Source: Acidobacteriota bacterium
GTDB taxonomy: Bacteria > Acidobacteriota > Vicinamibacteria > Vicinamibacterales > Fen-181
Direction of reading: 5' to 3'
Length of the DNA: 44,635 bases
Assembly: GCA_017883185.1 (NCBI GenBank)
Contig: JADGOB010000017.1
Span: forward strand, 1 to 44,635
Part shown: piece by piece, positions 36,527-43,603 of the stretch
Layout of the letters: each line of letters starts with the position of its first letter
Position numbering within the stretch: the stretch's first letter is position 1
Translations under genes and position numbers: made by a program
The notes under the pieces: generated by a model
The model's input: the letters and a program-made list of their open reading frames with translations, nothing else
Told to the model about the DNA's origin: nothing
Database searches by the model: none

Positions 36527-36685
36527 CTACTGCTTGTCCTGCTTGTCGTCTTTCGTGTCCACTTCGCTCTTGAACCCGCGGATCGCCTGCCCGAGCCCCT
36601 TGCCCAGGCCGGCCAGCCGGCTGGTTCCGAAGAGCAGCAGGATGATCGCGAGAATCAGAATCAGCTCGGGAATACCCAGTCTCAT
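36527..36685 (-). CDS. tatA: TatA/E sec-independent translocase component
   Basis: A 52-residue TatA/E protein: one hydrophobic helix (LGIPELILILAIILLLFG) with the family F-G-x-x-x-L hinge (FGTSRLAGLGKGLG), then an amphipathic helix and a short charged tail. TatA forms the pore-like element for export of folded proteins. The ATG follows CAGGAG with good spacing. tatB and tatC are not in this window. Likely Tat substrates nearby are MsrP (1349-2299) and the radical SAM protein at 38514. Confidence 0.93.
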   Translation of the reverse strand: MRLGIPELILILAIILLLFGTSRLAGLGKGLGQAIRGFKSEVDTKDDKQDKQ

Positions 36686-37669: not shown

Positions 37670-37707
37670 GGCTTCCTCCCGGGGGCCATCGGTCGGCGCA
37701 GGCCTCA

Positions 37708-37716
37708 TGCTAACAT
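37708..37716 (+). promoter_or_regulatory. extended -10-like element TGCTAACAT
   Basis: TGCTAACAT lies 31 bases before the AGGAGG-GTG start at 37748. It covers the first in-frame ATG (37715), which argues against that ATG as the start. It matches elements at 2429 and 25867. Confidence 0.4.
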
Positions 37717-37747
37717 GAGCCGTCGGTCCGCCGCCCCAGGAGGCCTC

Positions 37748-38491
37748 GTGTCGCAACCCTCTCAGTTTCCAGCAGATCACATCACGACTTCTGCCGTCGG
37801 TTGCGATAGCGGGCACCCGTTGGTCGACTACCTCGGGGAGGAGATGCGCCCCGGCCGGTACGTCTTGCTCGAGGTGGCGGACAGTGGCATCGGGATGAAC
37901 GCCGCGACGCTGGTCCGCGTCTTCGATCCGTTCTTCAGCACCAAGTTCACCGGCCGCGGACTCGGGCTCCCAGCGGTGCTCGGTATCGTGCGCGGGCACC
38001 AGGGCGCGATCCAGATCGACAGCCAGCCAGGAAGGGGCACGACGTTCCGGGTGTTCCTGCCGACGCTGGCGGCAGCGGCGTCGCATACCGACATGCCTGT
38101 CGCCCAATCCGCCTCGACAGCCGAAGCCACCGCGATGGTGCTGGTTGTTGACGATGAGGAGAGCGTGAGGACGCTGGCCGAGCGGATGGTGCAGCGCTGC
38201 GGGCATCGGTCGGTCGGCGCCTCCAACGGTCTCGAGGCGATCCGCGTGATCCAGGACAACCCGGGGGCGATCGCCTGCGTGCTGCTCGACCTGACGATGC
38301 CGCGCATGGACGGCGCGGATACCCTGCGCGAGCTACGGAAGATCGCCAGCGACCTCCCGGTCATCCTGTGCAGCGGCTACCACTCGCAGGAGCTGCGAGA
38401 ACGCTTCGCCGACAACGGGCTTGCCGGGTTCGTGCAGAAACCGTACAAGCTCGCCGACATCAGCGCCGCACTGCAGTCTGCCCTCGAGTAG
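37748..38491 (+). CDS. HATPase-receiver protein lacking the HisKA half
   Basis: The 247-residue product consists of the C-terminal part of a histidine-kinase ATPase domain (YVLLEVADSGIGMNAATLVRVFDPFFSTKFTGRGLGLPAVLGIVRGH: G1 box, F-box and G2 box) followed by a complete receiver domain (VLVVDDEESVRTLAERM, phospho-acceptor aspartate in CVLLDLTMPRMDG, and the K in FVQKPYKLAD). The N-box, the phospho-acceptor histidine domain and any sensor are missing, so autophosphorylation is not expected. The receiver could still accept phosphate. The GTG at 37748 is supported by AGGAGG four bases before it. It is either a hybrid-kinase relic or an expressed receiver with a vestigial ATPase. Confidence 0.7.
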   Translation: MSQPSQFPADHITTSAVGCDSGHPLVDYLGEEMRPGRYVLLEVADSGIGMNAATLVRVFDPFFSTKFTGRGLGLPAVLGIVRGHQGAIQIDSQPGRGTTFRVFLPTLAAAASHTDMPVAQSASTAEATAMVLVVDDEESVRTLAERMVQRCGHRSVGASNGLEAIRVIQDNPGAIACVLLDLTMPRMDGADTLRELRKIASDLPVILCSGYHSQELRERFADNGLAGFVQKPYKLADISAALQSALE

Positions 38492-38513: not shown

Positions 38514-39752
38514 ATGATCTCCCGGCGCGAGTTTCTTGCCACGACCGCGCGATCGGCGTCGGCCGCCGCCGGCGCGGCCCTGGCTCCCGCTTCGGCCCTC
38601 GCGATCGGCGCGCCCCGCTCCCGTCGCGGGCTCCTCGACTGGATGGCCGGGGACGGCGATGATTTCCTGCGGACCGCGCCCAGGGCCCGCTACTGGACCA
38701 CGACCGCGCTTGCCGGCTCCAACTGCACCGCCTGCCACAAGGGCCAGCCCGATCCGGCCAGGGCACGTCCCCACGACCCGGCGAGCGTGCGATGCCTGCT
38801 GTGCGCCCAGCACTGCGACATCCCGGCGGGCAAGTCGGGCCAGTGCCGCGCGCGGATGAACGTGAAGGGCGTGCTGCGCAGCCTCGTCTACGGTCGGCCA
38901 GCCTCGACCCATGTGGACCCGATCGAGAAGAAGCCGTTCTACCATTTCCTGCCCGGCAGCGCCGCGCTCTCGTTCGGGACGTCCGGCTGCCCCCTTCGAT
39001 GCAAGTTCTGTCAGAACTGGGAACTCTCGCAGTCCACCCCGGGAGATCTCGAGGCGCCGTTCACGTCGGCGGCCGAGATGGCGCGGGCCGCGGAATCGCG
39101 GCGAACACCGGTGATCGCCTTCACCTACAACGAGCCCACGGTGTTCACCGAGTACCTGCTCGACGTGGCGGAGGAAGCGCGAACGCGAGGGGTGCGCTCG
39201 GTGATGGTGAGCTGCGGTTTCGCCAACGAAGCGCCGATGGCGGACATCTGCCGGTCGCTGTCGGCGGTGAAGATCGACCTCAAGGGCTTCAGCGAGGAGT
39301 TCTACCGGACCGTGTGCGGCGCCGAACTCCAGCCGGTGCTTCGCAGCATCAAGCAGGTGGCCAGGAGCGGGCGGCACCTCGAGATCGTCAACCTTGTCGT
39401 CCCCACCTTGAACGACTCCGAAAAGTCGCTGCAGGGGTTGGCCTCATGGGTGGCGGGCGAACTCGGGCCGGACGTGCCCATTCACTTCACGCGCTTTCAT
39501 CCCGACTATCAGTTGCTGAACCTCCCGCCGACACCCGTTTCCACGCTCGAGCGGGCGCGAGACATCGCGATGGCGGCAGGCATCCGGTACGCCTACATCG
39601 GCAACGTCCCGGGACACGCCGGCAACCACACCTACTGTCCGGGGTGCCGAAAGGTGATTGTGCGCCGCGAGAGTTTCTTCGTGACCGAGATGCACATGAA
39701 GGGCGGCGCCTGCGCCTTCTGCAAGCGACCGATTGCCGGCGTGTGGTCGTAG
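38514..39752 (+). CDS. amrS: AmmeMemoRadiSam radical SAM enzyme with Tat signal
   Basis: This 412-residue protein is the radical SAM member of the AmmeMemoRadiSam system, a conserved trio of unknown function. It begins with a twin-arginine signal (ISRREFLATTARSASAAAGA), so the folded enzyme would be exported. Next come a heme-type C71-x-x-C74-H75, the AmrS cysteine block RCLLCAQHCDIPAGKSGQCRAR (C94, C97, C101, C111), the radical SAM motif C159-x3-C163-x2-C166 (TSGCPLRCKFCQNW), the barrel (FTYNEPTVFTEY), and a C-terminal cysteine pair set (C375/C378 and C400/C403). A radical SAM enzyme outside the cytoplasm would need SAM and an electron donor there, which is unexplained. The stop codon lies at the edge of a palindromic repeat. 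An MEMO-AMMECR1 fusion follows. Confidence 0.9.
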   Translation: MISRREFLATTARSASAAAGAALAPASALAIGAPRSRRGLLDWMAGDGDDFLRTAPRARYWTTTALAGSNCTACHKGQPDPARARPHDPASVRCLLCAQHCDIPAGKSGQCRARMNVKGVLRSLVYGRPASTHVDPIEKKPFYHFLPGSAALSFGTSGCPLRCKFCQNWELSQSTPGDLEAPFTSAAEMARAAESRRTPVIAFTYNEPTVFTEYLLDVAEEARTRGVRSVMVSCGFANEAPMADICRSLSAVKIDLKGFSEEFYRTVCGAELQPVLRSIKQVARSGRHLEIVNLVVPTLNDSEKSLQGLASWVAGELGPDVPIHFTRFHPDYQLLNLPPTPVSTLERARDIAMAAGIRYAYIGNVPGHAGNHTYCPGCRKVIVRRESFFVTEMHMKGGACAFCKRPIAGVWS

Positions 39753-39810: not shown

Positions 39811-41352
39811 ATGACCAAGCAGACGACGTTGATGATCGGCCTTGTCGGCCTCGCGCTGGCGATGGGCTGCCGTGGTGACGTCGAGGCCGCCGGCCCGGCC
39901 GGCCAGGCCGTTCGCGAACCGGCCGTGGCCGGCCAGTTCTACCCGGCCGACGCAAGGACCCTGAACGCCACGCTCGACTCGGTCCTCCTGGACGCGATGC
40001 CGGGCGGCCGCGAGCGCCCCGTCGCGCTCGTGGCGCCGCACGCCGGGTACGTCTACTCGGCGCAGATCGCCGCGGACGCCTGGCGCCAGGCATCGGGACA
40101 GCAGTACGACACGATCGTTATCCTGGGAACCAACCACACCACGGCCGGCTTCGAGCGAATCGCGGTGTACCCGGGCAGCGGCCTCCGCACCCCGCTCGGC
40201 GTGGCGCACGTGGATCAGGCGCTCTCCGCTGCGCTGATCAAGGAGGACCCGGACTGCGTGGCCGACGCGAACGTGCACGCGAAGGAGCACTCCATCGAGG
40301 TCCAGATCCCGTTTGCCCAGCGTCTCTTCCCGAACGCCGCGATCGTCGCGGCCGTCGTCTCGTCCGAAGATGCGGGCGTCGTCACGCGGTTCGGACGAAC
40401 ACTGGCGAAACTGCTGGCCGGGCGCCAGGCGCTGATTGTCGCCAGTTCCGACCTGTCCCACTGGCCCTCGTGGCGCGACGCGGTGATCGCCGACCGCCGG
40501 ACGCTCGAAGCCATCGCCACCCTCGATCCCGACCGTGTCCGCGCGGCCGTGTCGGCCCGCGAGCGCGGCGTCCCGAACCTGGCCACGTGCGCGTGCGGCG
40601 AGGCTGCGGTCCTTGCCGCCATGACCGCAGCCAGGGCGCTCGGTGCGACGAGAGGCCGGGTGGTGAGCTACGCCAACTCGGGCGACCTGCCGGTCGGCGA
40701 TCCGGACCGCGTCGTGGGCTACGGCGCGGTCGCATTCTCTGCCGGCGAGCCAGGCGCCGACGCGACAGTGCTCCTGCCTCGTTCGCCGGCGGCGCAAGAG
40801 CTTCCTCCAACCGCCGCCGACAAGAAGCAGATGCTCTCGCTCGCCCGCGAGACGATCCGACGCTACCTGGAGACCGGCTCGGTCCCGCTGGCGCGCGGCT
40901 TCTCGGCCGGGATGGATCGCCCACAGGGCGTCTTCGTCACGCTTCGAAAGCGCGGTGCGCTGCGCGGGTGTGTTGGCCAGATGGTACCCGGCCGGCCGCT
41001 CCGCGTGCTCGTCGGCAGCATGGCGCTGGCCGCTGCGTTCGAAGACACGAGATTCGACAAGGTACGGGCGAACGAACTGAAAGACCTCGAGGTCGAGATC
41101 TCCGTCCTGACGCCGTTCAAGGAGGTCGCCGGTCCGAACGCGATCGTCGTCGGCCGCGACGGGGTGCTGTTGCAGAAGGACCGGCGGTCCGCGGTCTTCC
41201 TCCCGCAGGTCGCGACCGAAGAGGGCTGGACACGCGACGAGATGCTCGACAACCTGTGCCTCAAGGGCGGCATGTCGCAGGGCTGCTGGCGTTCCGCCGC
41301 GAAGCTCTCGACGTTCCAGGCCGACGTGTTCAAGGAAGGGGACTTCAGGTGA
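39811..41352 (+). CDS. lipoprotein fusion of MEMO1-like (AmrB) and AMMECR1-like (AmrA) domains
   Basis: A 513-residue protein joining two AmmeMemoRadiSam partners. The N-terminus is a lipoprotein signal with lipobox LAMGC (C20). The MEMO domain (about 34-310) has the conserved metal-site residues in VAPHAGYVYS (H77), LGTNHTT (H109) and TCACGEAAV (C262), plus HAKEHSIEVQIPF. The AMMECR1 domain (about 335-510) has the invariant GALRGCVGQ motif (384-389). Both keep their key residues, so the chain should be active, anchored outside the cytoplasmic membrane. It follows amrS after 58 bases and precedes a membrane spermidine-synthase-like gene after 13 bases. AmrA and AmrB are cytoplasmic in most organisms that I recall. 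Confidence 0.92.
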   Translation: MTKQTTLMIGLVGLALAMGCRGDVEAAGPAGQAVREPAVAGQFYPADARTLNATLDSVLLDAMPGGRERPVALVAPHAGYVYSAQIAADAWRQASGQQYDTIVILGTNHTTAGFERIAVYPGSGLRTPLGVAHVDQALSAALIKEDPDCVADANVHAKEHSIEVQIPFAQRLFPNAAIVAAVVSSEDAGVVTRFGRTLAKLLAGRQALIVASSDLSHWPSWRDAVIADRRTLEAIATLDPDRVRAAVSARERGVPNLATCACGEAAVLAAMTAARALGATRGRVVSYANSGDLPVGDPDRVVGYGAVAFSAGEPGADATVLLPRSPAAQELPPTAADKKQMLSLARETIRRYLETGSVPLARGFSAGMDRPQGVFVTLRKRGALRGCVGQMVPGRPLRVLVGSMALAAAFEDTRFDKVRANELKDLEVEISVLTPFKEVAGPNAIVVGRDGVLLQKDRRSAVFLPQVATEEGWTRDEMLDNLCLKGGMSQGCWRSAAKLSTFQADVFKEGDFR

Positions 41353-41365
41353 TCTGATCGCTGCC

Positions 41366-43603
41366 ATGCTGCTGTTCCTGGTCGGCCTGCTTGCGATCCT
41401 CTGCCAGGTCGTCCTGCTGCGCGAGTTGAACGTCGCGTTCTACGGCGTCGAACTCTTGTACGGCATCGCGCTGGCCGCGTGGATGGCTGGAGGCGCAGCG
41501 GGCGCGGCTTGCCTTCCCCGCCTGCTCGTGGCCACGCGGGGACGCCTCGCGTGGCTCCTCGCGGTCACCGCGTTTGCACTACCCGCCGAAGTGGCGCTGA
41601 TTCGCGCCAGCCGGTGGCTGCTCGGTGGCGTGCCCGGGGCCTACCTGCCGTTCGATCGGCAAGCCGTCGTCCTGGCCGTCTCGGTCCTGCCGCCGTCCTT
41701 CATCCTGGGGCTTGCCTTCCGGTGGGCCGCGCAGCTGTCGGCGGCATCCGGCCGCCCGCTGGCCGCCTCATACGGCATCGAGAGCGCGGGCGCGGTGTGC
41801 GGTGCGCTGGTCGCCACGGCCGCGTTCGCCTCCGGCGTGCAGACATTCACCGTCGCGCTGGTCACGGGAGGTCTCGCGCCTCTGGTTCTCATCGCCGTTC
41901 ACCGTCGGACGTTGCCCCGCGTTCGGCAGTGGCTGCTCGCGGCAGCGACGCTGCTGGCGGTCATTACGGCTTCTGTGTCCCTGGCGCCTCGCCTCGATCT
42001 CCTGATGACCGCGTGGTCCCATCCAACCGTCGTCGAGACTCGCGACTCACCCTACGCGCGGGTGCCCGCAACGGCCACCGGTTCGCAGACGGCACTGTTT
42101 CTCGACGATGTGCTGGTGCAGGAGAGCGAGACGGCGCTGCACGAAGAACTCGCTCATGTGACGGCGCTCCAGCACCCCGCGCCAAAGCGGATGCTGTTGC
42201 TCGGAGGCACGCTCGAGCGCATCGATGTCGAGCTCCGTCGCCACGGGCCTGAACGGCTGGACGTCGTAGAACTCGATCGCACCTACGTGCGCGTCGGCGA
42301 ACGCCAGATGGGCCTCCGCTCGACCGCCGTGTTCGACGACCCTCGCGACTTCCTGAGGCGGAGCGGGCAGTACGACCTGATCGTGGTCGCCATGCCGGCG
42401 CCGACGTCCGGGCAGTCCAACCGCTTCTACACCGCCGAGTTCTTCGGCGAATGCCGGAGACACCTCGCGCCGGGAGGCGTCGTGGGCTTCAGGATCGAGC
42501 TCCCCGAGAACGTCCTCACACCCCTGCTGGCGCTCCGCACGGCAAGCCTCGTCTTCGCCGCGCGTTCCGCGTTTCCGTTCGTCGACGTGCTGCACGGCAC
42601 GAGTGGGATCGCCCTCGCGTCGTCCACTCCCCTTCCGGCCGGGGCAGACGTATTGGCACGCAGGCTCGAGGACCGCGGTCTTCTCACCAAGCTCGTCACG
42701 CCCGCGTACCTGCGCTACCTGTATGAGAACGACCGTCGCCTCGAGTTGCGGGAGCGGCTCGAGCGCGTGAAGGCCGATGCCAATTCCGATGCGAGGCCCG
42801 CGTGCTATCAGTTCGCGGCGCTGAACTGGCTGGCGAAGTTCTTTCCGTCCCTGGTGAGATTCGATCCCGGACTCCTCGGGACAGCTGATGCCTGGCGGCG
42901 CGCGGCGCCGTGGGGCATGGCGTTCGCCGCCCTTCTCTTCTCACTCGCGAGGCGGTCGAACCCGATGCGCGCGACGGCGATTGCCGGGGTGGCGGGTCTT
43001 GTGGGAGCGCTTCTCGAAACCGTGCTCCTGCTCGACTACCAGGCCAGGAGCGGCGCACTGTTCGAGCGACTCGGCGTCCTGATCATGGCCTTCATGGCAG
43101 GCCTGGCGGCTGGCGCCTGGACCATAACCCGGTCGAGCCGGAACCACAGAGGCTCGGCCGGGTTATTAGCGGCCTTCGGCCGACACCCACGGTTTCTCTT
43201 CCCCGACGTCGAAGAGTTCGCGCAGAAGAGACGAAGCTGGAGGACCGGCACCTGTCGGGGACCGCGCGCGACGCGCACGTTGACCGCGGGGTTGTTCGTG
43301 ACGATGGGTATCGTCGGGGCGGCGACGGCCGGGCTCATCCGTGGCGGCGCGGATCCGGGCTTCGTCGGGACGGCGCTGCTGATGTTCGTTGTCGGAACGC
43401 TGGTCGCGGCGCTGTTCGGCTGCGCCTGCGTGATGCCGGGGCTGGAGGACGGTCCGGCGATTGGTCGCCTGTATGGCGCGGACCTGGCGGGGGGCGCAGT
43501 CGGATCGCTCCTGGCCGGCCTCGTGCTCGTCCCGATGGCCGGCCTCGTGCCAACGGCCTGGGTGGTCGTTGGCATCTCCCTCCTGGCACTGCTGCTGGTG
43601 TAA
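41366..43603 (+). CDS. polytopic membrane protein with spermidine-synthase-like domain
   Basis: A 745-residue protein with transmembrane segments in residues 1-210 (start MLLFLVGLLAILCQVVLLREL) and again after about 510, flanking a Rossmann-fold domain (about 215-430) of the spermidine/spermine synthase family. The cofactor motif is altered: MLLLGGTLERIDVELRRHGPERLDVVELD replaces the usual GGGDG-x-x-REV, and RFYTAEFFGECRRHLAPGGVVGF matches the second half. So it may bind SAM, decarboxylated SAM or a product without being a normal aminopropyltransferase. A loop near 590-635 (NHRGSAGLLAAFGRHPRFLF and on) is unusually basic. Its place as last gene of the AmmeMemoRadiSam operon suggests a joint role at the envelope. 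Confidence 0.82.
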   Translation: MLLFLVGLLAILCQVVLLRELNVAFYGVELLYGIALAAWMAGGAAGAACLPRLLVATRGRLAWLLAVTAFALPAEVALIRASRWLLGGVPGAYLPFDRQAVVLAVSVLPPSFILGLAFRWAAQLSAASGRPLAASYGIESAGAVCGALVATAAFASGVQTFTVALVTGGLAPLVLIAVHRRTLPRVRQWLLAAATLLAVITASVSLAPRLDLLMTAWSHPTVVETRDSPYARVPATATGSQTALFLDDVLVQESETALHEELAHVTALQHPAPKRMLLLGGTLERIDVELRRHGPERLDVVELDRTYVRVGERQMGLRSTAVFDDPRDFLRRSGQYDLIVVAMPAPTSGQSNRFYTAEFFGECRRHLAPGGVVGFRIELPENVLTPLLALRTASLVFAARSAFPFVDVLHGTSGIALASSTPLPAGADVLARRLEDRGLLTKLVTPAYLRYLYENDRRLELRERLERVKADANSDARPACYQFAALNWLAKFFPSLVRFDPGLLGTADAWRRAAPWGMAFAALLFSLARRSNPMRATAIAGVAGLVGALLETVLLLDYQARSGALFERLGVLIMAFMAGLAAGAWTITRSSRNHRGSAGLLAAFGRHPRFLFPDVEEFAQKRRSWRTGTCRGPRATRTLTAGLFVTMGIVGAATAGLIRGGADPGFVGTALLMFVVGTLVAALFGCACVMPGLEDGPAIGRLYGADLAGGAVGSLLAGLVLVPMAGLVPTAWVVVGISLLALLLV

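Follow-up and report, generated by a model that had tools for sequence, protein, structure and literature searches.

A predicted Tat-exported AmrS-family radical SAM enzyme with a candidate heme c attachment motif, encoded in a conserved cassette with Memo-AMMECR1 and a membrane-bound SAM-type domain

Because radical SAM chemistry depends on SAM and on an electron donor of very low potential, the enzymes that carry it out are regarded as cytoplasmic. One recurring set combines Memo and AMMECR1 with a related radical SAM domain (Burroughs et al. 2019, cited in PMC7159879), and the portion of PMC7159879 that deals with these systems mentions neither export nor heme. For SAM chemistry outside the cytosol, an analogous precedent is NHMT, a fungal 7TM histidine methyltransferase with a SpeE-like domain that is located in the ER and methylates secreted proteins (PMC10349129). 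Homologues of the NHMT 7TM region were found by its authors only in fungi (PMC10349129). Here we analyzed a window of 44,635 nucleotides from an Acidobacteriota bacterium (contig JADGOB010000017.1) that encodes a member of the known AmrS family. Its apparent export, its CxxCH motif, its putatively co-exported partner, and a SAM-type domain predicted to face the periplasm together suggest a new variant of this family. The literature searched, with most subscription papers outside its scope, contained no earlier description of exported radical SAM enzymes or of an exported CxxCH AmrS.

The AmrS gene encodes 412 residues, and its translation opens with MISRREFLATTARSASAAAGAALAPASALA (Table 1). 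This translation bore out the length and the SRREFL start given for the protein in an earlier note on this DNA, as well as the positions of C71/C74/H75 and C159/C163/C166. In a profile search, the protein scored 363.7 bits against TIGR04337, passing the cut-off of 220, and it also matched Pfam Radical_SAM (PF04055) with an E value of 4e-16. Because the TIGR04337 match (residues 88-411; model positions 8-333 of 349) starts only at residue 88, the N-terminal ~87 residues are an extension of the family core. Relatives were gathered by scanning ~85,000 bacterial and archaeal genomes with search patterns that did not include CxxCH, which yielded 80 related loci; 9 further loci were added from genomes near that of the window. 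CxxCH was present in 57 sequences, 48 of them retained at <85% identity.

Table 1. Coordinates of the features discussed in the text (positions within the window)
Feature	Coordinates	Strand	Evidence
AmrS-family radical SAM enzyme, predicted exported (Tat) CxxCH subtype	38514..39752	+	412 aa; TIGR04337 and Pfam Radical_SAM
Predicted Tat signal region, residues 1-47 (RR, residues 4-5, nt 38523-38528)	38514..38654	+	Conserved twin Arg
C71-x-x-C74-H75 (C71-T-A-C74-H75), candidate covalent heme c attachment motif	38724..38738	+	Invariant 48/48
H87, candidate distal axial ligand, ~12 residues past CxxCH	38772..38774	+	46/48 in column
AmrS N-terminal cysteine block C94/C97/C101/C111	38793..38846	+	Invariant in 74/74 aligned relatives
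Radical SAM [4Fe-4S] motif C159-x3-C163-x2-C166	38988..39011	+	Invariant in 74/74 relatives
C-terminal CxxC...CxxC, C375/C378/C400/C403, rubredoxin-like or zinc-ribbon pair	39636..39722	+	Invariant 74/74
Memo + AMMECR1 fusion (AmmeMemoRadiSam proteins B and A), N-terminal signal sequence	39811..41352	+	TIGR04336, TIGR04335
Membrane protein, 7 TM + spermidine-synthase-like Rossmann domain + 7 TM	41366..43603	+	Pfam Spermine_synth; synteny
Spermidine-synthase-like domain, predicted periplasmic	41996..42892	+	Positive-inside rule

Besides the radical SAM cysteines, Y205, E207, P208, D255, and K257 of the core are also invariant in all 74 aligned relatives. This full conservation of the radical SAM residues argues for continued selection on the exported form as a radical SAM enzyme, which by sequence it is. 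The AmrS cysteine block reported in the earlier note is likewise present, as C94/C97/C101/C111, and probably forms an auxiliary Fe-S or metal site. For the C-terminal CxxC...CxxC pair, some members gave weak zinc-ribbon Pfam matches. An AlphaFold2 model of the enzyme had a mean pLDDT of 88, and among solved structures its fold was closest to that of a pyruvate formate-lyase activating enzyme (3cb8; E 5e-16, TM 0.82 across the target). Confidence over the heme-motif region of this model was moderate, with blocks of pLDDT 64-74.

The N terminus of AmrS has the character of a Tat signal. Non-redundant relatives share the pattern [ST]-R-R-x-[FL]-[LF], with F/L at +2, and 46 of 47 N termini have the twin arginine, the single exception being KR. 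The h-regions are moderately hydrophobic, with a mean hydropathy of ~1.3-2.3, and the host has Tat machinery, TatC being encoded on contig C25 of the same genome and a TatA-family gene lying within the window. Candidate cleavage points in the window protein are ALA/IG at 31 or MAG/DG at 47, and the cleavage site is not sharply conserved across relatives. An earlier in-frame TTG occurs at 38421; the start at 38514 is nevertheless supported by the homologues, whose M-[IL]-[ST]-R-R beginnings coincide with it. The earlier note would have given up its export prediction had homologues of this clade begun at or after residue 60 without RR motifs, and the alignment revealed that those of the CxxCH clade do not start after residue 60 and carry RR signals. 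We regard export of AmrS as very probable, and independent evidence from its cassette partners and from signal-less paralogues, set out below, agrees with this.

All nine Tat-type AmrS proteins from genomes near that of the window have both an RR start and CxxCH. A second AmrS in the window's own genome (contig C17) has neither signal nor CxxCH, and non-Tat AmrS proteins of the relatives (fetched loci) start shortly before the cysteine core and have no RR. We also tried curated TIGR/Pfam Tat models as a classifier of export, but these were too insensitive, matching just 4 of 74 members, weakly, with E values of ~0.01.

Within the N-terminal addition, C71, C74, and H75 were each found in all 48 non-redundant relatives, which come from many phyla. 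In contrast to these fixed positions, the XX positions hold 35 different dipeptides among the 48 relatives, and in most linker columns around the motif the commonest residue accounts for <50%. A histidine is present somewhere in the H87 segment in all 48 sequences, usually 7 residues before C94. The earlier note had cautioned that CxxCH can arise by chance and might not be conserved among orthologues. Its invariance within a variable linker speaks against chance, and its conservation among orthologues is matched by a history of one gain and two clean losses. AmrS has the features by which a c-type heme site is recognized, namely a conserved CxxCH, a candidate sixth ligand, and PF01578 maturation proteins in the genome. 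Two members additionally gave weak Cytochrome_C7 / NrfB-like Pfam matches, neither of which was significant. If the enzyme is exported, CxxCH would probably carry heme.

We traced the history of the motif on a maximum-likelihood tree built from the AmrS core alone, with the trait region left out. CxxCH needs three changes on this tree. Read most simply, it arose once, at the base of a 60-row clade (support 100/99), and was later lost twice within that clade, by the Smithella group and by L021. In both losses CxxCH and the distal histidine were deleted as one loop, H87 thus disappearing along with CxxCH in the Smithella group, and the signal, an AP-x-ARYW stretch, and the enzyme core were kept. 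That the motif and the distal histidine were gained and lost together argues that the two work together. The sister clade (L064-L084; ~50% identity) mostly bears RR signals and never has CxxCH. The signal is thus older and more widespread than CxxCH, which was added later to an exported-looking enzyme. Co-occurrence of the Tat signal and CxxCH, proposed as a check in the earlier note, therefore holds for the CxxCH clade but breaks down in the sister clade and the Smithella group, which are Tat-type and have no CxxCH. Because these exported-type proteins do without the motif, the function does not require heme. The emergence of the CxxCH clade inside an exported-type clade is as expected if export first made heme attachment possible.

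Covalent heme attachment would depend on cytochrome c maturation. The genome of the window encodes four PF01578 proteins, CcmF- and CcmC-sized frames among them, and PF01578 was detected in all 48 CxxCH-form genomes (this one and 47 others) versus 28 of 32 genomes without CxxCH (Fisher test, p ~0.02, run with 49/49 rather than 48/48 and not corrected for relatedness). As a sharp discriminator of CxxCH and CxxCH-less genomes, maturation genes (PF01578 and ResB) were rejected: the association goes in the expected direction, yet it is weak because most CxxCH-less genomes also have a maturation system. PF01578 also takes in proteins other than cytochrome c assembly factors. A ResB search revealed the second maturation type in most genomes tested. 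Neither ResB nor a CcmF-length frame was found in three CxxCH metagenome-assembled genomes (MAGs; L010, L028, and L065), gaps that likely reflect MAG incompleteness. Among the cassette flanks, no multiheme cytochrome genes that could serve as electron donors were recurrent.

In the window and in most homologous loci, the Memo-AMMECR1 fusion gene adjoins AmrS on its 3' side. The fusion scored 227 bits against TIGR04336 and 164 bits against TIGR04335, both above cut-off. An N-terminal hydrophobic segment was observed on the fusion in all 55 cassettes of the CxxCH clade or Smithella group in which its start was visible, and it was lipobox-like in 11. The gene for the 7TM-SpeE-like-7TM protein is syntenic in most cassettes, and clustering of neighboring frames revealed no conserved neighbor across the clade besides the three cassette genes.

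Individual loci depart from this arrangement. On the Desulfonema magnum chromosome (L032), from a cultured and completely sequenced organism, the CxxCH AmrS stands alone, and Memo, AMMECR1, and the 7TM protein were not found in the fetched flanks. The signal-less AmrS-family gene on contig C17 of the window's genome (L004, 7944-9023) adjoins genes that we named from their translations as MoaA-like and D-Ala-D-Ala dipeptidase-like. Neither Memo nor AMMECR1 was apparent alongside, and AmrS relatives may therefore function independently of the three-gene system. At a sister-clade locus (L084, 4633-5688), the Tat-type AmrS gene has just upstream of it a gene for a DUF362 protein (Pfam) with an RR-type N terminus, and similar frames are present in L066, L080, L082, and L083; this protein is possibly an additional exported partner in the sister clade. 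In a Syntrophus MAG (L063, 1371-2186), the signal start is altered and runs straight into the middle of the AmrS core, probably through an internal deletion or an assembly error. Two observations concern the DNA upstream of AmrS in the window. A TatA-family gene (PF02416, E 1e-16) lies ~1.8 kb upstream, at 36530-36685 on the minus strand, and clustering of neighboring frames did not find such a gene at other AmrS loci. In addition, a plus-strand frame at ~37700-38491 ends, as judged by its translation, in histidine-kinase ATPase-like and receiver-like domains; it overlaps an OsmC-like gene on the other strand, and its N-terminal part is apparently missing.

An AlphaFold2 model of the third cassette protein (pLDDT 87; pTM 0.88) consists of 7 + 7 long helices around the SpeE-like domain and matched the fold of 1uir with an E value of 8e-13. 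In all 31 homologues analyzed, Lys plus Arg residues are more numerous in even loops than in odd loops, which would put the even loops inside and thus predicts that the spermidine-synthase-like domain is in the periplasm. The protein is unlikely to be classed with spermidine synthases, in which the acidic residue of GxG(D/E)G serves decarboxylated SAM. Column 283, where this acidic residue would stand, holds chiefly I/V/L/A/M and is followed directly by a conserved Glu, and the score of the protein falls well short of the cut-offs for polyamine aminopropyltransferases.

What the sequence shows, namely the signal, conserved motifs, intact catalytic residues, cassette, and topology statistics, suggests a working scheme for export, heme, electron route, SAM supply, and substrate. 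AmrS would fold in the cytoplasm, gain its Fe-S clusters there, and leave in the folded state via Tat, and the Memo-AMMECR1 fusion would take the Sec route or be exported as a lipoprotein. One heme c would then be bound covalently to C71/C74 in the N-terminal AmrS loop, its axial ligands being H75 and probably H87 (bis-His). As the heme would lie ~20 residues before the auxiliary cysteine block, electrons may pass from periplasmic partners to the heme, on to this block, and then to the radical SAM cluster. Such a scheme would require SAM outside the cytoplasm, for which the best candidate supplier or co-user is the adjoining 7TM-SpeE-like-7TM protein with its own SAM-type domain facing the periplasm. 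The substrate would most likely be the co-exported Memo-AMMECR1 or something bound by it. In its general form, a complete AmmeMemoRadiSam module at the periplasmic side in which AmrS of most members has one c-type heme, this is the reading that we lean toward.

We put forward the whole pathway, in which heme c-reduced AmrS acts on Memo-AMMECR1 and the 7TM-SpeE-like-7TM protein either exports SAM or draws on a pool of it in the periplasm, only tentatively, and we would be somewhat surprised if every part of it held. The potential of a c-type heme is normally well above what a radical SAM cluster needs, which counts against a heme relay. A c-type heme on a Tat substrate, which is pre-folded, is uncommon, and the presence of free SAM in the periplasm of bacteria has, to our knowledge, yet to be established.

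Other explanations fit parts of these data. AmrS may be exported and yet have no heme, with C71, C74, H75, and H87 binding zinc (C2H2-type) or forming a structural or redox dithiol and with electrons arriving by another route. Four co-conserved ligands (C, C, H, and H) around a variable loop would also suit zinc, exported relatives work without CxxCH, and in some CxxCH genomes no clear maturation system was detected. However, the C-x2-C-H spacing is the canonical heme c pattern and does not vary in 48 sequences, whereas the XX residues differ widely, in keeping with what heme c lyases tolerate. Moreover, cytochrome c assembly genes of the PF01578 family are found in every CxxCH genome, and the Cytochrome_C7 / NrfB-like matches in two members, although weak and non-significant, point the same way. 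We consider a zinc or dithiol site unlikely, though it deserves serious attention, zinc being the main competitor of heme. A short motif such as CxxCH could also be a chance occurrence, or the TTG at 38421 could mean that the start codon was misassigned. We rejected this explanation, whose probability we regard as negligible, on the basis of the 48/48 conservation, the single gain on the tree, and the homologous start position.

The location of the chemistry can be questioned as well. The RR N terminus could be an uncleaved anchor or a non-functional signal, leaving AmrS cytoplasmic near the membrane and Memo-AMMECR1 anchored with its domains inside. This would agree with the poorly conserved cleavage site, with the few and weak matches to Tat models, and with the normally cytoplasmic location of SAM and radical SAM chemistry, but an ordinary anchor has no need of a near-invariant twin arginine. 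Lipobox-like signals on some Memo fusions, the predicted outside position of the SAM-type domain of the third gene, and the origin of the CxxCH clade within an exported-type clade also make cytoplasmic retention improbable. Alternatively, AmrS might be exported preloaded with SAM and clusters and perform a single stoichiometric modification without an outside SAM pool, the heme serving only to protect or to sense oxygen. Tat does export folded proteins with bound cofactors, and we know of no established bacterial exporter of SAM to the periplasm for such a role, which counts in favor of preloading. A second SAM-type domain predicted to be periplasmic next door suggests instead that SAM is supplied there, and the sequence bears no sign of single turnover; preloading thus seems quite improbable to us. 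The periplasmic module with a heme-bearing AmrS remains our preferred reading.

If the whole pathway put forward above did operate in the periplasm, the cassette would supply a radical SAM enzyme wired by heme c, as well as evidence that SAM occurs outside the cytoplasm of bacteria. In this conserved, multi-phylum cassette the radical SAM enzyme is predicted to lie outside together with its partners and a second SAM-type domain. The question of periplasmic SAM thereby becomes directly testable, and whether heme c can feed a radical SAM cluster is a second question that becomes testable with it. The cassette also offers a handle on an AmmeMemoRadiSam system with the human relatives MEMO1 and AMMECR1, for which we know of no settled biochemical function.

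Compared with known systems, the subtype shares with AmrS (TIGR04337) the whole core, the cysteine blocks, and the adjacency of Memo and AMMECR1 genes. It differs from canonical and paralogous AmrS by the addition of ~87 residues, comprising the Tat signal and the CxxCH-His loop, and by Memo and AMMECR1 being fused and signal-bearing. Pyruvate formate-lyase activating enzyme, a glycyl-radical activase, matches the radical SAM core in fold and sequence. In contrast to AmrS, this enzyme is cytoplasmic, has ~245 residues, and lacks a signal, CxxCH, and the N- and C-terminal cysteine blocks of AmrS, and AmrS scores far below the glycyl-radical activase family cut-offs. With c-type cytochromes, AmrS has in common an invariant CxxCH and a conserved downstream histidine on a predicted exported protein. 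Unlike these cytochromes, AmrS has no recognized cytochrome c domain, its candidate heme being placed on a short loop before the radical SAM core. Finally, NHMT resembles the third cassette protein in having a 7TM region followed by a SpeE-like SAM-type domain and in the hydrophobic replacement of the acidic GxG(D/E)G residue. NHMT is fungal, however, and has no second 7TM block. As homologues of its 7TM region were found only in fungi, the likeness is one of resemblance rather than of demonstrated homology.
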